A DNA stretch of 64,000 bases from Streptomyces sp. NBC_01233. GTDB taxonomy: Bacteria > Actinomycetota > Actinomycetes > Streptomycetales > Streptomycetaceae. The notes under the pieces are model-generated. The model searched no databases and was not told the origin of the DNA. It saw nothing but the letters and a program-made list of their open reading frames with translations. Shown here one piece after another: positions 45,756 to 62,257 of this stretch. A program made the translations under genes and the position numbers. The stretch spans positions 620,001-684,000 of the forward strand of contig NZ_CP108514.1 in assembly GCF_035989305.1 (NCBI RefSeq), read 5' to 3'. Position 1 is the first letter of the stretch, and each line of letters opens with the position of its first letter.

Positions 45756-47345
45756 GTGACCCTCCCCACGTCCTCATCCCGCACCCCCCGCAGCCGTACC
45801 CGAGCGCTGCGCGCCGCCGCCGTCGTCGCCTCGGCGGCGATGGTCGCGATCTCCGTCCAGAGCGGCTCCGCCAACGCCTCGGCGGAGCGCGAGGCGGGAG
45901 CCACCGCGCTCGCCCTCACCGCCGACGCGCGCGTCCAGGCGATCACCGCGGCCCAGAACACGGCGGCCGACACCGCGCGGGCCATCGGCCTCGCCGACGA
46001 CGAGCGCCTCGTGGCCCGCGATGTGATCAAGGACGCCGACGGCACGGTGCACACCCGCTACGAGCGCACCTACGCCGGACTGCCGGTCCTCGGCGGAGAT
46101 CTGGTGGTCCACCAGAAGAAGGACGGCAGCCGCAAGACCACCAAGGGCGTCGAGGCCCGAATAGCCCCGGCCACCGCCCGCTCCTCCCTCAAGGCCGCGC
46201 CCGCCGGTGCCCGCCAGGTCGTGTGGGCCGCGAGCGGCAAGCCGGTCTTCGCCTACGAGGCCGTCGTCACCGGCACCCAGCACGACGGAACCCCCAGCGA
46301 GCGCCACGTGATCACGGACGCCGCCACCGGCGCCGAGCTGTACTCCTACGAGGCCATCGACACCGGCACCGGCACGAGCCAGTACTCCGGCTCCGTCACG
46401 CTGGACACCACGCAGAGCGGGGCGTCCTACAGCCTGACCGACGGCGTCCGCGGCGGCCACAAGACCTACGACCTGAACGGCGGCACCACCGGCACCGGAA
46501 GCCTGTTCACCGACGCCGACGACAAGTGGGGCGACGGACTGCCGTCGAACCGCCAGACGGCCGCGGCCGATGCCCACTACGGCGCTGCGGTGACCTGGGA
46601 CTTCTACAAGTCCGAATTCGGCCGCAACGGCATCGCCGGGGACGGCAAGGCCGCCTACTCCCGCGTCCACTACGGCAACGCCTACGTCAACGCCTTCTGG
46701 TCCGACGCCTGCTTCTGCATGACCTACGGCGACGGCGCCGCCAACCAGAAGCCGCTCACCTCCCTGGACGTCGCCGGCCACGAGATGAGCCACGGCCTGA
46801 CCGCCGCCACGGCCAAGCTGAACTACAGCCGCGAGTCGGGCGGCCTCAACGAGGCCACCAGCGACATCTTCGGCACGTCGGTGGAGTTCTTCGCGAACAA
46901 CCCGGCCGACGTCGGCGACTACCTCATCGGCGAGAAGATCGACATCCGCGGCAACGGTACGCCGCTGCGCTACATGGACAAGCCCAGCAAGGACGGCGCC
47001 TCGGCCGACTACTGGTCCAAGACCGTGGGCCGGCTCGACGTGCACAACTCCTCGGGCGTGGCCAACCACTTCTTCTACCTGCTCTCCGAGGGCAGCGGCG
47101 CGAAGACGGTCAACGGGGTCTCGTACAACTCGCCCACCTACGACGGTTCGACGGTGACCGGGATCGGCCGGACCAAGGCCTACAAGATCTGGTACAAGGC
47201 GCTCTCGACCTACATGACGTCGACCACCAACTACGCGGGAGCACGCACCGCGACCCTGCAGGCGACGGCCGACCTGTACGGATCGACCAGCGTGGAATAC
47301 CAGCAGGTGGCGGCCGCCTGGAAGGCCGTCAACGTCAACGGCTGA
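45756..47345 (+). CDS. Secreted M4-family (thermolysin-like) metalloprotease
   Basis: A 529-residue preproprotease. GTG 45756 has a GAAGGAG site. A signal peptide runs to about residue 45, followed by an FTP/PepSY propeptide (about 60-210). The mature enzyme has zinc ligands His342 and His346 in HEMSH with Glu343 as base, third ligand Glu366 in GGLNEATSD, and His430 in LDVHNSSGVANHFF. It degrades protein outside the cell. The P-domain seen in some homologues is absent. It lies just downstream of a dead M36 gene. Confidence 0.95.
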   Translation: MTLPTSSSRTPRSRTRALRAAAVVASAAMVAISVQSGSANASAEREAGATALALTADARVQAITAAQNTAADTARAIGLADDERLVARDVIKDADGTVHTRYERTYAGLPVLGGDLVVHQKKDGSRKTTKGVEARIAPATARSSLKAAPAGARQVVWAASGKPVFAYEAVVTGTQHDGTPSERHVITDAATGAELYSYEAIDTGTGTSQYSGSVTLDTTQSGASYSLTDGVRGGHKTYDLNGGTTGTGSLFTDADDKWGDGLPSNRQTAAADAHYGAAVTWDFYKSEFGRNGIAGDGKAAYSRVHYGNAYVNAFWSDACFCMTYGDGAANQKPLTSLDVAGHEMSHGLTAATAKLNYSRESGGLNEATSDIFGTSVEFFANNPADVGDYLIGEKIDIRGNGTPLRYMDKPSKDGASADYWSKTVGRLDVHNSSGVANHFFYLLSEGSGAKTVNGVSYNSPTYDGSTVTGIGRTKAYKIWYKALSTYMTSTTNYAGARTATLQATADLYGSTSVEYQQVAAAWKAVNVNG

Positions 47346-50981: not shown

Positions 50982-52226
50982 GTGCGAAGCAGAAACACCC
51001 GCAAGGCTCCCCTACTCGCCGCCAGCCTCGCGGCGGCCACCCTTTCGGCGCTGACGCCCGCAACGGCGTTGGCCGCGTCCACGGCATCCGATGCCTCCAC
51101 CGCCAAGGACCCCCTGCGGCAGTACACGCAGCAGAAGCTCCAGTGGAAACGCTGCGACGCGAAGGGCCCCGACACCTTCCAGTGCGCGACGCTCAAGGTG
51201 CCACTGGACTACAGCGACCCCGGCGGCAAGACGATCGGCCTCGCGATATCCCGGCTGAAGGCGGGCAGCGCGAAGGCACGTCACGGCGTTCTGCTGCTCA
51301 ACCCGGGCGGCCCCGGCGCACCGGGACTGCAGCTGCCTGCCGACCCGCTCATGAAGTTCCCCGCGGAAGTGAAGCGGCGGTACGACCTCGTCGGCTTCGA
51401 CCCAAGGGGCGCCGGGCAGAGCTCTCCCGTCAGCTGCGGGCTGACCGCCGAGGAGCAGGCCGACCAGCCGTACAAGGCGGAGACCTTCACGAAGGACGTG
51501 GACCGGGCCCGTACCGTCGCCGAGAAGTGCCGGGCCAGGGCCGGTGACAAGCTGCCGCACCTCACCACCCGCAACAGCGCCCGTGACATGGACGTCATCC
51601 GCGCCGCGCTGGGCGAGGAGACGATCTCCTACCTGGGGATCTCCTACGGCACCTACCTCGGCGCTGTCTACATGCAGCTGTTCCCCCAGCGGGCCGACCG
51701 AATCGTGCTGGACAGCGCAACCAACCCAACCCGGATCTACAGGGGAATGTTCCAGGACATGGCGAAGGCGGCCGAGCAGGCTTTCACGCGCTGGACCGCA
51801 TGGACGGCCCGTCGGCACACGACCTACGGACTGGGCGACACTCCGGCCAAGGTCCGCAAGACCTACTGGGACCTGATCGCGCGGGCGAACCGCAAGCCCG
51901 TCCTTTTCGAGGGACAGACCCTCACCGGCGACGGCATCCGTGCAGACAACCGCACGTTCTTCCACGTCCAGAAGGCCGCCGAACGGATCACCGGACTGAA
52001 GAAGGGGATGCTCACCGTCGCCGGCGGCGAGGGACACGGCGTCCTCTACGCGCCGGACAGCAGTCCCTGCGCGGACAAGGCCGTCACGGTCTACCTGACC
52101 ACGGGCAGGCTCCCCGCCAAGGACCTGACCTGCCAGGCTACGGCCGGGCAGAAGGAGCAACCCCGCACGTTTCCCGTCCCCACACCTCCGAGCCGGCCGG
52201 GAACGCACGACCGTCTCTGGCCCTGA
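50982..52226 (+). CDS. Secreted S33-type (TAP-like) alpha/beta hydrolase, internally shortened
   Basis: A 414-residue exported hydrolase resembling Streptomyces tripeptidyl aminopeptidases (usually about 500-540). The signal peptide ends near TALAA. The oxyanion loop LLLNPGGPGAPG and nucleophile Ser in YLGISYGTYLGAVY are intact. After FFHVQKAAE, however, the sequence goes directly to RITGLKKGMLTVAGGEGHGVL. This skips about 100 residues that normally carry the catalytic Asp (the family's QGDxDPxTP-like motif). The His (GEGHGVL) remains. In-frame deletion makes it look complete, but it is probably inactive. Confidence 0.8.
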   Translation: MRSRNTRKAPLLAASLAAATLSALTPATALAASTASDASTAKDPLRQYTQQKLQWKRCDAKGPDTFQCATLKVPLDYSDPGGKTIGLAISRLKAGSAKARHGVLLLNPGGPGAPGLQLPADPLMKFPAEVKRRYDLVGFDPRGAGQSSPVSCGLTAEEQADQPYKAETFTKDVDRARTVAEKCRARAGDKLPHLTTRNSARDMDVIRAALGEETISYLGISYGTYLGAVYMQLFPQRADRIVLDSATNPTRIYRGMFQDMAKAAEQAFTRWTAWTARRHTTYGLGDTPAKVRKTYWDLIARANRKPVLFEGQTLTGDGIRADNRTFFHVQKAAERITGLKKGMLTVAGGEGHGVLYAPDSSPCADKAVTVYLTTGRLPAKDLTCQATAGQKEQPRTFPVPTPPSRPGTHDRLWP

Positions 52227-53379: not shown

Positions 53380-53652
53380 TCCGCGGCGATTCGCCGCAGG
53401 CCCTCCTGACGGGCCGGGAGGAGAAGATATTGACGGATGCAGCCACGCTGGCCGGAAAACCTCGGCCAATTTGGTGACAAGCACACTGATGTTTCATCAT
53501 TGTGACAGCACGTCAGCTCTTGGCGTGCGTCGAGGAGCCGGGGGCGCCGGGGGGGTCCCCCGTTCACACCGGTCGAAGCCGCGGGCGAGTTCTTGCTCTC
53601 GCCGTGCGCCGCCGGGGCTCCCGTCCCGTTTCCGTCACCAAGGCAAAGGCCC

Positions 53653-54921
53653 ATGTCCGCCCAGCAACTCTCGGACCTCATACGTTTCGCCCGTCACAAC
53701 TCACCCTTCTACCGGGACCTTTACGCGTCCCTGCCGCCGCACGCCGACCGCCTCACCGACCTGCCGGTGGTCGACCAGCAGGAGTTCTGGGCGGCCAACA
53801 CCCTTCACGACAGCCGTGTGCTGACCGGCCCGCTCAGCGAGGCCACGGTCTACAAGACCGGCGGCACCACCGGGTCCCCCAAGTTCTCCGTCTACACCCG
53901 CGACGAGTGGCGCACCTTCGTCACCTCCTTCGGCCAGGGCCTGGTGGACGCGGGTCTGCGCCCGGGGCACCGCGTCGCGGACCTCTTCTACGCCGGGGAG
54001 CTGTACGCCAGCTTCCTGTTCGTCCTCGACTCGCTCGCCCACGCGCCCGTGGACAACGTCCGACTGCCGATCGGCGGCGGCGCGGCGCTGGAGACGACGA
54101 TCCCCACGCTGCGCGATCTCGCCGCGCAGGTGCTGGCCGGCACGCCCACCACCCTGTGCCGGCTCGCCGAACAGGTCGTCTCCACGGGTGCCCGGCTCGA
54201 CTCCGTCGAGCTGCTGCTCTTCGGCGGCGAGGCGCTCTTCGACGACCAGCGGCGCCTGCTGGCCACCGCGTTCCCCCGTGCCGAGGCCCGTTCCGTCGGA
54301 TACGCCAGCGTCGACGCCGGCCTCCTCGGCCGCCCCGTCCCCGGCACCGACGCCCGGGTGCACCGCGCCTTCACCCCGTACTCGGTCGTCGAGATCCTCG
54401 ACGACTCCACCGATGAGCCCGTCACCGAACCGGGGCGGCCCGGCCGCGTCGTCGTCACCAGCCTCTTCCGCCGGCTCATGCCGATCATCCGCTACCCCGC
54501 CGGTGACCGGGCCGAGTGGACCGGCACCGGGCCCGGGCACTTCCGGATCCTCGGCCGCGCCGAAGAAGGCGTACGGGTGGGACCCGTCTCCCTCTACACC
54601 CAGGACGCCCAGGACGCCGTGACCGCGGCGGACACCGCAGGGCAGGTGGTCGGCATGCAGCTCGTCGTCCGCCGCTGGGACGGCCGCGACGGGCTCGTCC
54701 TGCGGCTGGCGACGGCCCCCGGCGACCCCGACCACGGCCGGGAGCAGCTGGCCGGGGCCGTCGTCGCGGAGCTGGAGACCGTACGCCCGCTGTATCCGGA
54801 GAGCGTGCGCGCCGGGTTCGTGCACCCGCTCTCGGTGGAGTGGGCACGCCACCGCGACCTCGCCGTCAACCCGCGCTCGGGCAAGCTCGTCCGGGTCCTC
54901 GACGAGAGGCCGACCGCATGA
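53653..54921 (+). CDS. PaaK/CapK-like AMP-forming adenylating enzyme
   Basis: First gene of a coupled operon. 422 residues, of the phenylacetate-CoA ligase (PaaK/CapK) branch of the ANL superfamily. The ATP P-loop is TGGTTGSPK (69-77) with the Lys present, the adenine-binding stretch is LFGGEALF, and the C-terminal catalytic Lys is in NPRSGKLVRVL (K411). It would activate a carboxylic acid as the acyl-AMP and pass it to CoA or a protein thiol. Related to the domain fused to LuxC at 58569. Start ATG 53653 follows AAGGCAAAGG. The preceding 273 bp hold only a short dyad (TGATG TTT CATCA near 53487). Confidence 0.88.
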   Translation: MSAQQLSDLIRFARHNSPFYRDLYASLPPHADRLTDLPVVDQQEFWAANTLHDSRVLTGPLSEATVYKTGGTTGSPKFSVYTRDEWRTFVTSFGQGLVDAGLRPGHRVADLFYAGELYASFLFVLDSLAHAPVDNVRLPIGGGAALETTIPTLRDLAAQVLAGTPTTLCRLAEQVVSTGARLDSVELLLFGGEALFDDQRRLLATAFPRAEARSVGYASVDAGLLGRPVPGTDARVHRAFTPYSVVEILDDSTDEPVTEPGRPGRVVVTSLFRRLMPIIRYPAGDRAEWTGTGPGHFRILGRAEEGVRVGPVSLYTQDAQDAVTAADTAGQVVGMQLVVRRWDGRDGLVLRLATAPGDPDHGREQLAGAVVAELETVRPLYPESVRAGFVHPLSVEWARHRDLAVNPRSGKLVRVLDERPTA

Positions 54922-56258
54922 CCGCCGCACCCGTGACCGAGGAGGTCACGAGCGGGGTTGCGACCGGCGGCCGACGCGCGCCGCTGATCCTGCGCAACCG
55001 CGCCTTCGGCGCCGTGTGGCTCGGCCAGGTCCTCAGCCAGGCCGCCGTCCGCATGTTCCAGGTCGGCGTGTCCTGGTGGATCGTCGCCTACGCCGTGCAC
55101 GACGCCCGCGGTCTGGCCTCCGGGCTGTTCATGGCGGCCTGCACCCTGCCCGCCGTGGCGCTGGCGCCCGTCGTGGCGGCGGCGGTCGGCCGCTTCGCCC
55201 ACCGTTCGGTTCTGCGGACCGCCGCCGCCCTGGCCGGGGCCGCCTCCGGCGCCCTCGCGCTGTGGGCGTACGGCGGCGGGCTGCCGCTCCCCGCCGTGTA
55301 CGCCGCCGCTCTCGCCCTGGCCACTTGCCAGGCCTTCTTCGATCCCTGCCTGACCACCTCGGTGCCCGAACTCGTCGACGACGCCGACATCGAGACGGCC
55401 ACCGGCTTCGAACTGTCCACCCAGTCCCTGGCCGGCCTCGGCGGAGCGCTCCTCGGCGCCCTGACCGTCGACCAAGCCGGCGTGGCCGGGCTGGCCGTCG
55501 GCTGTGCGGCCGCCTACGCCGGGGCGGCCCTGCTCGTCGCGAGCGCCCGCTTCCGCCCCATCGGAACCATCGAAACCGCCGAGACCGGCGCGGCCGGCAC
55601 GGCCGGCACGGCCGCAGCAGACGTGCCCCAGCGGCGCGCGCTCCGCCGGATCCTGGGCGAACTGCCCTACGTACGGCGGATCCTGGTCTGCTTCACCGCG
55701 GCGAACCTCTTCACCACCGCCGTCTTCGTCGTCATCCCCCTCTACACCCGCTCGGTCCTCCAGGGCGGTGGCGCCACCGTGGCACTGCTGGAGGCCTCCC
55801 TGGGCACCGGCGCGCTCATCGGCGCCTTCACCGGCACCCGCGTGCCGGGCCGGCCCACGGTCGCCGGCGCCTACTGCCTGGGTCTGATGGCCCTCGCGCT
55901 GGCGGTGCCGGGGCTGGTCGCGCACCGCCCGGTCGTGGCGGGCAGCCTGGCCGTGGCCGGATGGTGTGCCGGGGCGGTCAGCGTCCGCTTCGTGGCCCTC
56001 TTCCAGCGGCTGGTGCCGACGGCGGACAAGCCCGGCTTCTTCGCCGTGATGCAGGCCGTACTGGGCGCTTCCCTTCCGGTGGCGTCGCTCGTGTTCGGCT
56101 CCGCCGGCGATTTCCTCTCGCCCCGGACGCTGTGCCTGGTGCAGGGGGCGGGCCTGGTCCCCGCCGCCATCGCGCTGGCCCTGCTCGGGTCCCGTACGCC
56201 CGAACCGCCCGCAGCGGACGCGGACCACGGCACGGAACCCGTCGGAGGCACCCGGTGA
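54918..56258 (+). CDS. MFS exporter
   Basis: Second gene of the operon, ATGA overlap with the adenylating enzyme. A 446-residue major facilitator with about 12 helices; the type resembles the enterobactin/macrolide exporters (MFS_3): FGAVWLGQVLSQAAVRMFQVG at the first helix and ANLFTTAVFVVIPLYT at the second half. Alanine/threonine-rich loop (about 215-240). Its place suggests export of the operon's product and self-resistance. Confidence 0.88.
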   Translation: MTAAPVTEEVTSGVATGGRRAPLILRNRAFGAVWLGQVLSQAAVRMFQVGVSWWIVAYAVHDARGLASGLFMAACTLPAVALAPVVAAAVGRFAHRSVLRTAAALAGAASGALALWAYGGGLPLPAVYAAALALATCQAFFDPCLTTSVPELVDDADIETATGFELSTQSLAGLGGALLGALTVDQAGVAGLAVGCAAAYAGAALLVASARFRPIGTIETAETGAAGTAGTAAADVPQRRALRRILGELPYVRRILVCFTAANLFTTAVFVVIPLYTRSVLQGGGATVALLEASLGTGALIGAFTGTRVPGRPTVAGAYCLGLMALALAVPGLVAHRPVVAGSLAVAGWCAGAVSVRFVALFQRLVPTADKPGFFAVMQAVLGASLPVASLVFGSAGDFLSPRTLCLVQGAGLVPAAIALALLGSRTPEPPAADADHGTEPVGGTR

Positions 56259-57400
56259 ACCCCGTCATCACCGCGGCCACCCCGGCCGACATCGCCGAAC
56301 TGCGCCAGCTCTACTACGCCGTCTACGGGCCGCACTACCCGGTGGCCCTCGGCACCGACCCGGCCGAGATGGCCCGGCTCATGGAGGACCCGCACTCCCT
56401 GTGGCTCGTCGCCCGCTGCGCAGGCACCGGGGCCCTGACCGCGTCCGCCGCCATCCACGGCGAGCCGGGCAGCCGCATCGGCCGTCTGGAGGGCATCGCC
56501 GTCCACCCCGGGCACCGCTCGGGGGGCCTGGCCGCCGCCCTGACCGAGGCGCTGTGCGCCGGGATGCTGGACACGGGGCGGCTGGACTCCGTCTACGCGA
56601 CCGTACGCACCGTCGGTTCCGGACCGCAGCGCGTCGTCGCGCGCAACGGCTTCCGCCCGCTGGGCATCCTGCCCAACGCGGTGGATCTCCGCAGCCGCGA
56701 AAGCCTCGCGCTCTACGCGCGTCACTCCGAGGGTGTGCTCGACCGCCGGATGCCGGTCACCGAAGTGCCCGCTCCGCTGCTGCCGTTGCTGCGCACCGCG
56801 GAGGCCGCCCTCGGCATCCGCTACCCCGGGGTCCGCGCCTCCACCGGCCCGATCCCGGCGCCCGCGCCGCAAGGGGCCGCCGAACGGCTGGAGATGATCG
56901 AGGCTCCGGCCTTCGTACGCCGCCGTTTCCGCGAGCAGTTCCCCTGCGCCGAGGGCTGGTTCTACCCGCTGCACACCCCGAACGTGCTGCTCACCCCGGA
57001 GGACGGCCGGTTCGAGGTCTACGCCTACCTCAACCGCGCCGGCGGGTACGCCTCCCTGCTGACCGCCCACCCCGACCCGGCCGCCGCGGCCGCGTACCTC
57101 GAACCCGTCACCCGGGCCCTGGCCCGCGCGGGTGCCGGTTACGTCGAGGCCCTGGTGCCGCTCGCACACCAGGAGGCCCTTTCGGCCTTCCTCGCCCAGG
57201 GGTTCGTCGCCGGGGCCCTCTACCCGGCGATGCGCGCCGACGGCGACGGCTTCCACGACTACGCCGTCCTGTCCCGGTCCAGCGAGCGGATCGACTTCCG
57301 CGGCGTCGCCGTCGAACCGCCTCTCCAGCCCTATCTGGACTGCTACACGTCGGCCTGGGCGTCGACCCATCTGCCCACATCACCCGAGGTCGCCTCATGA
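56255..57400 (+). CDS. GNAT acetyltransferase-like protein with two domains
   Basis: Third gene, GTGA overlap. 381 residues. The N-terminal GNAT domain has the acetyl/acyl-CoA motif LEGIAVHPGHRSGGLAAALTEAL (about residues 78-100) and QRVVARNGFRPLGI. The C-terminal ~170 residues form a second GNAT-like fold around YLNRAGGYASLLT then VEALVPLAHQEALSAFLAQGF, without a clear CoA loop. Such an arrangement can transfer an acyl group from CoA to an amine. The substrate may be a product of the LuxE/LuxC enzymes. Confidence 0.82.
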   Translation: MNPVITAATPADIAELRQLYYAVYGPHYPVALGTDPAEMARLMEDPHSLWLVARCAGTGALTASAAIHGEPGSRIGRLEGIAVHPGHRSGGLAAALTEALCAGMLDTGRLDSVYATVRTVGSGPQRVVARNGFRPLGILPNAVDLRSRESLALYARHSEGVLDRRMPVTEVPAPLLPLLRTAEAALGIRYPGVRASTGPIPAPAPQGAAERLEMIEAPAFVRRRFREQFPCAEGWFYPLHTPNVLLTPEDGRFEVYAYLNRAGGYASLLTAHPDPAAAAAYLEPVTRALARAGAGYVEALVPLAHQEALSAFLAQGFVAGALYPAMRADGDGFHDYAVLSRSSERIDFRGVAVEPPLQPYLDCYTSAWASTHLPTSPEVAS

Positions 57401-58572
57401 ATCCCATGAACACCACGAACCACATGAACCCCCATCTCGCACCGGTCTCCGTACCCGATCCGGCTCTCCTGCCGCACGTACAGCAGCTGTGCGACCTCAC
57501 CGATCCGTACGCCTCCGGGCCCGCGGAGGACGCACTGTTCGCCGCCGCCATGGCGGAGACCAACGCCTGGCACGCCGAGCGCTCCCCGTTCTTCCGCTCC
57601 CTGTACGAGGCCACTGCGCCGGCCGAGCCGTACCGCACGCCACTCGTCCACGCGAACTTCTTCAAGCGCCACGAGGTGCTCTCCATCCCGCACGAGGACG
57701 TCGAGCTGCACCTGACCTCCTCCGGCACCACCGGCCAGAAGTCGCAGATGTTCTTCGACCACTGGACCATCCGCTCCGCCCAGCGCATGGTCGCCCGGAT
57801 CTTCGAGCGCAACGGCTGGATCACCCCCGACCAGGAGGTCAACTACCTCCTCTACAGCTACGAGCCGGCCCCGTCCCTGAACCTCGGTACCGCCTTCACC
57901 GACAACTACCTGTGCGACTTCGCCCCCGCGCGCAGCGTCGAGTACGCACTGCGCAACACCGGCGGCGACCACGAGTTCGACCCCTTCGGCTGCATCGCCG
58001 CGCTGCGCCGCTTCGAGCGCGAGGACGCCCCGGTCCGCATCCTCGGCTTCCCGGCCTTCCTCTTCTTCACCCTGGAGCGCATGCGCTCCAGGGGGCTGCC
58101 TCCGCTGCGCCTGCCCGAGGGCTCCCTCGTCGTCCTCGGCGGCGGCTGGAAGGGCCACGCCGACCGGCGCATCGGCAAGGAGGAGCTGTACTCCCGCGTC
58201 ACCGAGCAGCTGGGCATCCCGGGCGAGCGGATCCGGGACACCTTCGGGTCGGTGGAGCACTGCATCCCGTACATCGAGTGCGACCACCACCGGCTGCACG
58301 CCCCCGTCTGGTCCCGGGTGACGATCCGCTCCACGCGCACGCTCGAACCGCTGCCGTACGGGGAGCCGGGCTACCTCCACCTCGTGTCGCCGTACATCAC
58401 CTCGGTGCCCGCGCAGAGCGTGGTCATGGGCGACCTCGCCTCCCTCCGGCCGGGCGACGCCTGCGGGTGCGAGCTGGAAACCCCCTGGTTCACCGTCCAC
58501 GGCCGTGCCGGGGTGAGCCGCAACCGCAGCTGCGCGGTGGCCGCAGCCGAACTGATGAAGGACATGGCGTGA
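57397..58572 (+). CDS. LuxE-like acyl-protein synthetase
   Basis: Fourth gene, ATGA overlap. 391 residues. In bacterial bioluminescence LuxE activates a fatty acid as acyl-AMP, holds it on a Cys near its C-terminus, and passes it to LuxC for reduction. The ATP P-loop is LTSSGTTGQKSQ (about 106-117), with the internal FGSVEHCIPYIECDHHR and the C-terminal GRAGVSRNRSCAVAAAELM. Cys379 lies 12 residues from the end, in the same place as the acyl-accepting Cys of Vibrio LuxE. The N-terminus has repeated Met/Asn codons; other starts are possible. Confidence 0.85.
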   Translation: MNPMNTTNHMNPHLAPVSVPDPALLPHVQQLCDLTDPYASGPAEDALFAAAMAETNAWHAERSPFFRSLYEATAPAEPYRTPLVHANFFKRHEVLSIPHEDVELHLTSSGTTGQKSQMFFDHWTIRSAQRMVARIFERNGWITPDQEVNYLLYSYEPAPSLNLGTAFTDNYLCDFAPARSVEYALRNTGGDHEFDPFGCIAALRRFEREDAPVRILGFPAFLFFTLERMRSRGLPPLRLPEGSLVVLGGGWKGHADRRIGKEELYSRVTEQLGIPGERIRDTFGSVEHCIPYIECDHHRLHAPVWSRVTIRSTRTLEPLPYGEPGYLHLVSPYITSVPAQSVVMGDLASLRPGDACGCELETPWFTVHGRAGVSRNRSCAVAAAELMKDMA

Positions 58573-61121
58573 CCGTGACGGAGACCAAGGCCGCGTACGA
58601 GCAGCACGGCGACGGCGCCGCGCACCACTACTGGCAGGGCGCGTTCATCGGCGACGAGGAGGCCGGGCGCCGCCTCGCCGGTCTGCCGGCCGCCGTGGAG
58701 GCCGCGCTGGCCGAGGGGCTGGCGACCGAGACCGTCCTGGCCGCCTGCGACGCCCTCGCCGGCGCCCTGTGCGACCCGGCCCACCCCGTGCACGCCCGGC
58801 TCGCCCCCCACCTGCCCGAGGGCGAGGACCCGTCCGTCCTCGCCGAGCTCGGCGGCCTCCTCGGCCGGCGGGAGCTGACCCGCAAGCTGCGCCGGGAACT
58901 GGGCGGCGCGGCTCCCGGCCGACTGAACCGGGCCGATCCGCGCGAGACGGTCTACGAGGCCTGGGCGCCCGTCGGCCTGGTCGCCCACATCGCCCCGGGC
59001 AACGCCTCGACGGTGGCGCCGCTGAGCATCGTCGAGGGCCTGCTCGCCGGCAACGTCAACGTCCTCAAGACCAGCAGCGCCGACACCCTCCTCACCCAGC
59101 ACCTGATGGCCGAGCTCGCGGCCCTGGACCCCAGCGGCACGCTGGCCGCGCGCATCGTCGTGCTGCGCTTCCCGTCCTCCAGGCAGGAGTGGCTGCGCCT
59201 GATGTGCGCGCCCGCGGACGCCGTCGCCGTATGGGGCGGGGAGGGCGCCGTCGAAGGGGTGGCGGCCCATGTGCCGGCCGGCTGCCGGCTGGTGGAGTGG
59301 GGGCACCGGATCTCCTTCGCGTACCTGACGGGCGACGCCTGGTCGGACGCCGGGACGCTCGACGCCCTCGCGGACGACGTGTGCCTGCACGAGCAGCAGG
59401 CGTGCTCAAGCCCCCAGGTGGTCTACCTCGACACCGAGGATGAGGGCGAGGTGTTCGCGTTCGCCGAGCGCTTCGCCGCGGTGCTCGCGGCGCGGCCGCC
59501 GGCCGTGACCGCCGCTGCGGCGGGTGGGCCGGATCCCGCCGGGGAGGCCGAGCTGACCACCACCGAGCTGATGGCACGCCTGGAGGAACACCTCGGCCTC
59601 ACGCGGGTGTTCGCCGCGCCCGACGGCTCGTGGCGGGTCATGGCCGACACCCGGTCCCCGCTCACCGCCTCGCCGCTGCACCGCAGCGTGTGGGTCAAGC
59701 CGCTGCCCCGCGAGCGGCTGATCGCCACCCTGCGCCCGATGCGCCGCTACCTGCAGACCGCCGGCCTCGCGGGCAGCCGGACCGACATCGCCGAGCTGTC
59801 CCGCACCGCCCTCGCGGCGGGCGTCACCCGTGTGACGCCGGTCGGCGCCATGCTGGGCAGCTACGCGGGCGAGCCGCACGACGGCGTCTACGCCCTGCAG
59901 CGCTACAGCCGCCGCGTCGCGGTCCAGGCCGACCCGGCCCGCTTCGCCACCACCGCCTGCCTGGACGACCTGGCCCGGCCCGTCGTCCTGCCGCGGCCCG
60001 CAGGCCCGCTGCTGGGCAAGGAGGACGTGCCGGAGCTGGGCCCGCAGGTGGCGCGGGCCGATGCCGAGCTGTACTTCCGCAGCGGCGGCAGCACCGGCGC
60101 GCCCGCCCTGTCGATCTTCAGCTACGACGACTACGACACCCAGATGCACGCCGCCGCCCGCGGCCTGCTCGCCGCCGGCTACGACCCGGTCGGGGACCGC
60201 ACGGCGAACCTCTTCTACTGCGGCGCCATGTACGGCAGCTTCATCAGCTTCTTCTCCGTGCTGGAGCGGCTCGGCGGGGTGCAACTGCCGCTGTCCGCCG
60301 GACCGGACCACCGGGCGACGGCGCAGGCGCTGATCGACCTGGGGGCCGACACCCTCTTCGGGATGCCCTCCTACCTGTGGCAGCTGCTGCACGCGCAGGA
60401 GGAAGCGCTGCGCGCGTACGGAGGCCTGCGCAAGGTCTTCTACGGCGGCGAGCACTTCACCGAGGAGCAACAGCGCACGCTCAAGGAGAGGTTCGGGATC
60501 GAGACGGTCCGCTCGATCACCTACGGCAGCACCGACCTCGGCCCGCTGGGCTACCAGTGCACCGAGAGCTCCGGCGGCGTCCACCACCTGCACGCCGACC
60601 TCCACACGATGGAGGTCCTGGACCTGGCCGTGGACCGGCCGGTGGCTCCGGGCGAGACGGGCCGGCTGGTCTTCACCACGCACGCCCGGCGCGGCCAGCA
60701 CCTGGGCCGGTACGTGATCGGCGACCTCGGCCGGGAGGTCCCCGGCCGCTGCCCGTGCGGCCGGCACGCGCCCCGCTTCGAGCTGCGGGGGCGCACCGGT
60801 GACGTGATGCGGGTGGCGACGTACTTCCTCAACCACCGGCGTTTCCTGGACCTGGCCGGGGAACAGGGCGGACACCGCGGCGAATTGCAGGTCCGGCTCG
60901 ACGGTGCGGACGCGCGCGAGCTGCTGACCGTACGGGTGGAGCGGGCCGGGACGACGGATCCGGAGCGGCTGCGGGAGGTCTTCCTGACCGGCTACCCGGA
61001 GCTCCGCTCGGCGGTGACGGAGCGGCTGCTGGACCTGGTGGTCGAGGCGGTCGACGGCGCGTCGCTGGACCGGAGCCCGACCAGCGGCAAGCTCCTCGCG
61101 GTGGTGGACGCGCGCCGCTAG
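58569..61121 (+). CDS. LuxC-like acyl reductase fused to a PaaK-like adenylating domain
   Basis: Last gene of the operon, GTGA overlap. 850 residues. Residues 1-480 are a LuxC (acyl-CoA/acyl-protein reductase) domain: GLVAHIAPGNASTVAPLSIV for nucleotide and acyl binding, and the acyl-accepting Cys279 in LHEQQACSSPQ. Residues ~490-850 are a PaaK/CapK-like domain. Its P-loop reads SGGSTGAPALS (about 504-514), without the usual Lys, yet the C-terminal catalytic Lys is kept in PTSGKLLAVV. Fusion of these two activities in one chain is unusual. The TAG stop shares its first two bases (TA) with the target site of an IS630 element, so the true end may be lost. Confidence 0.87.
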   Translation: MTVTETKAAYEQHGDGAAHHYWQGAFIGDEEAGRRLAGLPAAVEAALAEGLATETVLAACDALAGALCDPAHPVHARLAPHLPEGEDPSVLAELGGLLGRRELTRKLRRELGGAAPGRLNRADPRETVYEAWAPVGLVAHIAPGNASTVAPLSIVEGLLAGNVNVLKTSSADTLLTQHLMAELAALDPSGTLAARIVVLRFPSSRQEWLRLMCAPADAVAVWGGEGAVEGVAAHVPAGCRLVEWGHRISFAYLTGDAWSDAGTLDALADDVCLHEQQACSSPQVVYLDTEDEGEVFAFAERFAAVLAARPPAVTAAAAGGPDPAGEAELTTTELMARLEEHLGLTRVFAAPDGSWRVMADTRSPLTASPLHRSVWVKPLPRERLIATLRPMRRYLQTAGLAGSRTDIAELSRTALAAGVTRVTPVGAMLGSYAGEPHDGVYALQRYSRRVAVQADPARFATTACLDDLARPVVLPRPAGPLLGKEDVPELGPQVARADAELYFRSGGSTGAPALSIFSYDDYDTQMHAAARGLLAAGYDPVGDRTANLFYCGAMYGSFISFFSVLERLGGVQLPLSAGPDHRATAQALIDLGADTLFGMPSYLWQLLHAQEEALRAYGGLRKVFYGGEHFTEEQQRTLKERFGIETVRSITYGSTDLGPLGYQCTESSGGVHHLHADLHTMEVLDLAVDRPVAPGETGRLVFTTHARRGQHLGRYVIGDLGREVPGRCPCGRHAPRFELRGRTGDVMRVATYFLNHRRFLDLAGEQGGHRGELQVRLDGADARELLTVRVERAGTTDPERLREVFLTGYPELRSAVTERLLDLVVEAVDGASLDRSPTSGKLLAVVDARR

Positions 61122-62257
61122 TGTCCTGCGCCGGAGATTCGTCGGCAGAAACGGGCTAGGGAGTCGAGGATCTCCTCGGCTGTCTTGGTCCAGATGAACG
61201 GCTTGGGGTCTTCGTTCCAGTTCTTGACCCATTTGCGGATGTCGGCTTCGAGGGCCTGGACGTTCTTGTGTGCGCCGCGGCGGATCATCTGGTCGGCCAG
61301 GAAGCCGAACCACCGCTCGACCTGGTTGATCCACGAGGAGCCGGTCGGGGTGAAGTGCAGCTGGAACCGGGGGTGTTTGGCCAGCCATGCCCTGATCGCC
61401 GGGGTCTTGTGGGTGCCGTAGTTGTCCACGATCAGGTGGACCTGGAGATGCGCGGGCACCTCTTTGTCGATCCTGATCAGGAACTTCTTGAACTCGGCAG
61501 CCCGGTGTCGGCGGTGCAGGGCACTGATGACCTCACCAGTGGCAACATCGAACGCAGCGAACAAGGTGGTCAGGCCGTTGCGGACGTAGTCATGGGTTCG
61601 TCGCTCGGGCATGCCGGGCATTATCGGCAGGACCGGCTGGGACCGGTCCAGGGCCTGGATCTGGGATTTCTCGTCCACCGAGAGCACCACCGCGCCCTCG
61701 GGCGGGTTGAAGTACAGGCCGACGACGTCGTAGACCTTCTCCACGAACAATGGGTCCGTCGACAGCTTGAACGTGTCCGTCAGGTGCGGCTTGAGCTGGA
61801 ACTTCCGCCAGATCCGGCCGACCGTCGACTTCGACAGGCCACTGCGGTCCGCCATCGACTTGCGCGACCAGTGCGTGGCGTTCTTCGGGAGTTCCTCCAG
61901 TGTCGTGACCACGACGTTCTCCACCTGGTCGACGCTGATGGTGGGCGGCCGGCCGGGCCGGGGCTCGTCGACCAGCCCGTCCAGCCGGTCGGCCAGGAAC
62001 CGTCGCCGCCACTTGCGGACCGTGTCCGCGGTCACCCGCAGATCCCGTGCGACCGCGACGATCGGCGGCACCTCCGGCCCGGCGCACGCCAGCACAATCC
62101 CAGCACGCAGGGCCAGAGCCTGGGCCGATGTCGCCCGACGAGTCCACCGCTCCAACGCCGCCCGCTCATCAGCAGAGAGCAGCAACGGCTCCAGCTTCGG
62201 GCCCCGACGAGGAACAGACGCACCAGCAGCAGAAGTCACACAACAACTAACGATCAA
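61118..62257 (-). CDS. IS630-family transposase
   Basis: A 379-residue DDE transposase. The N-terminal HTH is around VTADTVRKWRRRFLADRLDG and the catalytic residues lie in VVLSVDEKSQIQAL (D), VHLIVDNYGTHK (D) and GSSWINQVERWFG (E). The frame is intact, so the element may be active. The stop codon lies at the TA target. It is transcribed against the LuxC fusion gene. Confidence 0.93.
   Translation of the reverse strand: MIVSCCVTSAAGASVPRRGPKLEPLLLSADERAALERWTRRATSAQALALRAGIVLACAGPEVPPIVAVARDLRVTADTVRKWRRRFLADRLDGLVDEPRPGRPPTISVDQVENVVVTTLEELPKNATHWSRKSMADRSGLSKSTVGRIWRKFQLKPHLTDTFKLSTDPLFVEKVYDVVGLYFNPPEGAVVLSVDEKSQIQALDRSQPVLPIMPGMPERRTHDYVRNGLTTLFAAFDVATGEVISALHRRHRAAEFKKFLIRIDKEVPAHLQVHLIVDNYGTHKTPAIRAWLAKHPRFQLHFTPTGSSWINQVERWFGFLADQMIRRGAHKNVQALEADIRKWVKNWNEDPKPFIWTKTAEEILDSLARFCRRISGAGH

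Follow-up and report, generated by a model that had tools for sequence, protein, structure and literature searches.

What might be made by a Streptomyces operon that joins LuxE- and LuxC-type proteins to adenylating ligases, an exporter and a member of the GNAT family? The question is raised by five adjoining genes, here designated A to E, that are located within a window of 64,000 nucleotides from Streptomyces sp. NBC_01233 (contig NZ_CP108514.1, positions 620,001 to 684,000 of the forward strand, or C1:620001-684000). We see roughly even chances that this operon, by a route whose steps are all inferred, makes a short N-acylated peptide aldehyde without a carrier protein; the likeliest form would be a leupeptin-class tripeptide aldehyde with an acetyl cap. 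Leupeptin itself is one candidate product.

The five-gene cassette and its distribution

The genes encode, in order, a PaaK-like adenylating ligase (A), an MFS exporter (B), a GNAT (C), a LuxE-type acyl-protein synthetase (D) and a LuxC-type reductase that is fused to another PaaK-like ligase (E); their coordinates are collected in Table 1. An initial annotation of the window had described five genes with four-base overlaps. Indeed, all five frames are open and such an overlap is present at each junction, and the families that were named there agree with both Pfam and NCBIfam.

A search for the same gene order in other genomes had also been proposed. There are 48 loci in one scan of named genomes, 47 of them titled Streptomyces and one Streptosporangium, and these represent close relatives only, with E relatives that are 75-96% identical in the best segment. 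Judging by gene calls at these fetched loci and the window (n=49), the full A-B-C-D-E order is found at 44 of 49 loci, nearly all from Streptomyces, and the arrangement is thus not due to chance. Individually, A is present at 47 loci, B at 46, C at 48, and D and E at all 49. The exceptions include L014, which lacks A, and L031, which lacks both A and B, each situated at the start of a contig. In addition, B is absent at L017 and L018 while the other four genes stay, and C is only partial at L047. The four-base overlaps are almost always retained (A/B at 44 of 45 loci, B/C at 45 of 45, C/D at 48 of 48 and D/E at 48 of 49). The commonest flanking gene family is present at 12 of the 49 loci. Since no flank family exceeds this number, a larger gene set around the cassette was rejected, and the cassette is a self-contained five-gene unit.

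LuxE relatives (E 1e-20) are found in 46 of 392 evenly drawn Streptomyces genomes and in 4 of 396 genomes of a draw from the phylum, and with an alignment as the query they are found in 12 of 394 genomes of a draw from the class; all three draws include the source genome and count LuxE places, such that whole cassettes are not implied. Some of these places lie outside Streptomyces, including those in genomes G504 and G538. The source genome has LuxE at one place and LuxC at two, the second of which is weak (22.2 bits).

A proposed route to a peptide aldehyde

Gene D matches the Pfam LuxE family (8e-24), and E matches Pfam LuxC (9e-85) in addition to carrying an AMP-binding domain. In a search of solved structures, D and the N-terminal half of E match the LuxE and LuxC chains of 7xc6, the fatty acid reductase of bioluminescence. 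Two cysteines that had been singled out at the outset, Cys379 of D and Cys279 of E, are present and are each identical in 57 of 57 aligned sequences. We take these to be the acyl-carrying residues of LuxE and LuxC. Cys279 aligns with the QQAC motif in the reductase chain of 7xc6, and it alone was mapped onto that structure; the alignment of D with the LuxE chain ends at residue 347, short of Cys379.

Gene A reaches the Pfam AMP-binding model at 29.9 bits, which is barely at the cut-off, and the solved relatives found by sequence for A and for the C-terminal half of E are PaaK-type enzymes. Lys411 of A is invariant in a 16-row alignment and is presumably the catalytic lysine.

The initial description of C as a two-domain GNAT is only partly borne out. 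A second alpha/beta half is present in the structure model (mean predicted local distance difference test score, pLDDT, of 84.8), but Pfam recognizes a GNAT domain in the first half only. There is no solved relative of C by sequence at E 0.1. A Foldseek search with the model places phosphinothricin and ArsN acetyltransferases at the top, with bleomycin N-acetyltransferase and histidine acetyltransferase lower within the first 50 matches. A second structural aligner returns many GNATs, among them RimI, NatA, ArgA (at a lower Z) and aminoglycoside acetyltransferases. These matches mostly cover the first half of C, and the second half is barely probed by them. C more likely acts first in the pathway, on the alpha-amine of an amino acid, because phosphinothricin, histidine and N-terminal acetyltransferases are among its fold neighbours and because it remains next to LuxE and LuxC at loci that have no adjoining A. 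This fold support falls short of proof, as the GNAT fold is common to many different enzymes. Thus, the earlier suggestion of an exported small molecule made via an enzyme-bound acyl group and an aldehyde fits in its first part, whereas the acylation by the GNAT that was placed last more likely comes first.

Perhaps, then, C would transfer an acetyl group from acetyl-CoA to the alpha-amine of an amino acid, after which A would adenylate the capped amino acid and couple it to a second one, forming the first peptide bond. A third residue would be coupled by the PaaK half of E. The resulting peptide acid would be adenylated by D and taken onto Cys379, and the acyl group would then move to Cys279 of LuxC for reduction by NAD(P)H to the aldehyde, which would be exported by B. 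An acetylated tripeptide aldehyde (Ac-aa-aa-aa-al) has three activated carboxyls, one cap and one reduced end, and these parts are matched by A, LuxE and the PaaK half of E as carboxylate-activating enzymes, by the GNAT and by the reductase. This part count is an argument rather than a result, and the PaaK domains might make CoA thioesters instead.

If the proposal is true, the cassette is a candidate source of leupeptin-class inhibitors in Streptomyces, whose peptide aldehydes the papers cited below attribute to nonribosomal peptide synthetases (NRPSs). It would also be a compact five-gene tool for producing peptide aldehydes with no giant peptide-making enzymes, and copies with and without A would make a rule of one ligase for one residue directly testable.

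Several loci bear on such a rule. At L070, L071 and L072, genes B, C, D and E are present with no A adjoining. The genome of L070 (G247, a single contig) has no match to A at E 1e-40 genome-wide. Thus, one A-less copy of the three has no close A to rely on, which fits a role for A that is limited to adding one residue, and an operon of this type would give a product that is one residue shorter. More generally, C, D and E stay together where A or B is missing beside some relatives. Loci L073 and L074 have LuxE and a LuxC that lacks the ligase fusion, and A, B and C are all absent.

There are also distant relatives. A Salmonella operon (L050) includes LuxE (53% identical to D), a LuxC-PaaK fusion (37% to E), PaaK (39% to A) and a GNAT. 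Gene D matched four Salmonella records, two of them over 35% only. L050 (8212-14375) and L051 lie on conjugative IncF plasmids of Salmonella, close to genes for recombinases, transposases and toxin-antitoxin systems. A short frame 5' of the L050 operon has no Pfam match and looks like a transporter fragment. A near search of E. coli genomes with the Salmonella operon gave no match. A Chloroflexota plasmid carries the LuxE-LuxC pair alone.

On a plasmid of S. europaeiscabiei (L052, 4559-13017), LuxE (51% identical) and LuxC reside in a cluster that resembles those for ribosomally synthesized and post-translationally modified peptides. A gene with a metallo-beta-lactamase fold and an MbnB/TglH-type gene are followed by LuxE and LuxC, and a divergent gene for a YcaO protein with a nitroreductase domain adjoins them. 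The presence of LuxE-LuxC beside YcaO and MbnB/TglH-type enzymes suggests that the pair may act on peptides, and these neighbours indicate that in S. europaeiscabiei it likely meets a ribosomal peptide. An open frame of 51 amino acids at this locus is a possible precursor. A more tentative and rather doubtful extension is that this LuxE-LuxC subfamily is a portable, carrier-free module for reducing peptide carboxylates, which serves ligase-built peptides in the present operon and ribosomal ones in the YcaO/MbnB-type cluster, and that peptide length depends on how many PaaK ligases there are. The Chloroflexota, Salmonella and S. europaeiscabiei rows form long branches in a tree built with a quick method, and its deep placements were disregarded.

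Known systems and alternative explanations

The literature searched, with subscription papers mostly outside its scope, yielded no description of the five-gene order, in line with the initial statement that no pathway with this order had been described. As a claim about the chemistry that statement was too strong, because leupeptin production in Xenorhabdus reportedly relies on discrete AMP-dependent ligases plus a reductase (PMC11212599, citing Li 2020). The four genes leupABCD are accompanied by an adjoining transporter in K. michiganensis (PMC8283571), and the same paper locates the leup genes of Klebsiella CAV1374 at 315353-321183 of CP011636.1. By description rather than sequence, the leupABCD system of Xenorhabdus, Photorhabdus and Klebsiella shares discrete ligases with the window, which by domain has two PaaK-like ligases and LuxE. 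It likewise shares a dedicated aldehyde reductase, whose counterpart in the window is the predicted LuxC with its invariant Cys279. As weak evidence, leupABCD spans 5781 bases from the forward primer to the cluster end, the four-gene Salmonella operon 5759, and A, C, D and E of the window together 6144.

Standalone ligases are known to build other peptides with warheads (PMC11427300). Cystargolide, belactosin and E-64 are made by separate ligases, some of them adenylate-forming as in the window (PMC11427300, PMC12568646), but they differ in that a beta-lactone or epoxide warhead is made first and the partner ligases are ATP-grasp enzymes. Among the NRPS or NRPS-like aldehydes of Streptomyces (livipeptin, antipain and kin), the product class is the one proposed here and the livipeptin cluster has an N-acyltransferase gene (PMC10548850), whereas the window, unlike such clusters, has no PP-binding place. 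Leupeptin has been reported from several Streptomyces, S. lavendulae among them (PMC8546846).

A number of observations weigh against the assignment of a tripeptide aldehyde. In published work, the peptide aldehydes of Streptomyces, leupeptin among them, are attributed to NRPSs (PMC10548850), as are aldehyde warheads in general (PMC11427300). S. lavendulae, S. roseus, S. exfoliatus and S. griseus are absent from the named cassette records, from a scan that finds close relatives only. The leup primers match the two Salmonella operons with 6 mismatches at best. A peptide derived from the leupB primer scores up to 19 with Salmonella PaaK (17 near its start) and 15 with LuxE, and one derived from the leupA primer scores 17 with A of the window and 13 with the Salmonella GNAT; these peptides fit several families. 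The Salmonella GNAT is 24% identical to C in an alignment, and C gives no tblastn match to it. Moreover, flagellin glycosylation islands contain LuxE and LuxC alongside genes for lipids and an acyl carrier protein (PMC4875605, PMC7874193), and thus the pair, taken as a family, is not restricted to peptides. Amide formation by A and E is itself a proposed activity, and the solved relatives of A and of the ligase half of E are mostly phenylacetate-CoA ligases. Unfortunately, the structure model of A is poor (mean pLDDT 51.8), which ruled out pocket inspection and a fold search. Finally, the genomes of L071 (G300) and L072 (G168) each have a close A at another place (85-86% identity), which in G300 sits in a complete second operon (L077), and A could therefore act in trans in both. 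The ligase-count argument is strengthened by G247 and weakened by these second copies, and our overall estimate is unchanged. A further relative of A is present in G300 (C1:8657550-8658782, 42% identity), distant from both of its LuxE copies.

One possibility, which we judge unlikely, is a route in which an aryl- or alkyl-CoA formed by A serves the GNAT as donor for acylation of an amine, a further acid is activated by the PaaK half of E, and LuxE and LuxC reduce the product. The outcome would be an N-acyl amino aldehyde and not a tripeptide. GNATs use acyl-CoA donors, and A and E resemble CoA-forming PaaK enzymes. Gene A also has a weak match (25.4 bits) to the NCBIfam model for the bagremycin/ferroverdin synthetases BagE/FevW, whose products are aromatic. 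However, C is kept in G247, which has no close A, so C need not depend on A. Furthermore, the NCBIfam scores of A (48.6 bits) and E (72.5 bits) are far under the cut-off of 646.3 bits for the PaaK equivalog TIGR02155, although such scores are still compatible with CoA ligase activity.

It is less probable that the peptide aldehyde is only a stage on the way to a signal rather than a protease inhibitor, reached by cyclisation to a pyrazinone or by further reduction. A leupeptin-derived pyrazinone is known to alter transcription in Klebsiella (PMC11480411), but the cassette is accompanied by no extra gene conserved at more than 12 of the 49 loci; cyclisation may be spontaneous or use distant genes.

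It is quite improbable that LuxE and LuxC reduce a fatty or other non-peptide acid, in the manner of bioluminescence or in keeping with their place in flagellin glycosylation islands, and that this acid is decorated by the ligases and GNAT. The domain families and the match to 7xc6 are consistent with such a scheme, as is the presence of both genes in flagellin islands next to genes of fatty-acid type (PMC4875605, PMC7874193). It is at odds with the scores of D (67.3 of 550 bits) and E (65 of 750 bits), which fall far short of the NCBIfam equivalog cut-offs for LuxE and LuxC, and with a window that has neither a luciferase-family nor a PP-binding place. The islands resemble the operon in having LuxE and LuxC together with AMP-dependent ligases, and they differ, by description rather than sequence, in their acyl carrier protein, fatty-acid-type and glycosyltransferase genes (PMC4875605, PMC7874193). 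The 7xc6 reductase comes from the same two families with its cysteine aligned, and the window differs from it in the fusion of LuxC to a ligase, the sub-equivalog scores and the lack of a luciferase-family place.

The initial annotation had noted the lack of luxAB and of a carrier protein, and both points stand: the 24 luciferase-family and 92 PP-binding places of the genome all lie outside the window, with other polyketide synthase and NRPS domains not searched individually. The LuxD family (PF02273) has no match, but it has none in control genomes either and so carries little weight. An NRPS origin (no PP-binding place in the window) and membership of a bioluminescence system (scores under the equivalog cut-offs, no luciferase-family place in the window) were both rejected.

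Gene boundaries and neighbouring genes

Table 1. Features of the operon and its upstream region (window coordinates)
Feature	Coordinates	Strand	Basis
A: PaaK-like adenylating ligase, 422 aa	53653..54921	+	open frame, Pfam, NCBIfam, solved relatives
B: MFS exporter, 446 aa	54918..56258	+	open frame, Pfam MFS_1, NCBIfam
C: GNAT with second alpha/beta half, 381 aa	56255..57400	+	open frame, Pfam Acetyltransf_1, structure model
D: LuxE-type acyl-protein synthetase, 391 aa	57397..58572	+	open frame, Pfam LuxE, 7xc6 relative, alignment
E: LuxC-type reductase (residues ~1-455) fused to PaaK-like ligase (~480-850), 850 aa	58569..61121	+	open frame, Pfam, 7xc6/PaaK relatives, alignment
Partly conserved stretch with TGATG-TTT-CATCA dyad, 5' of A	53467..53516	+	alignment of 47 upstream regions

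Support for a start of A at 53653 comes from a AGGCAAAGGC stretch and an ATG codon, both of which are kept across loci. There are zero TTA codons in the called genes A to E. The partly conserved stretch upstream of A is a putative promoter or operator, possibly for some regulator. Among 47 aligned upstream regions, the sequence GATGTT(T/C)CATCAT is found in 20, and a second motif that follows it, TGA(C/G/T)nGn(A/G)CGTCA, is found in 36.

Upstream of the operon are genes for a thermolysin-like protease (45756-47345) and for an alpha/beta hydrolase with a TAP-like domain (50982-52226), neither of which belongs to a flank family common to at least three loci. At the other end, a transposase gene with DDE_3 and HTH_32 domains (61118-62257, minus strand) abuts the stop codon of E, and it looks like part of an IS630-type element.

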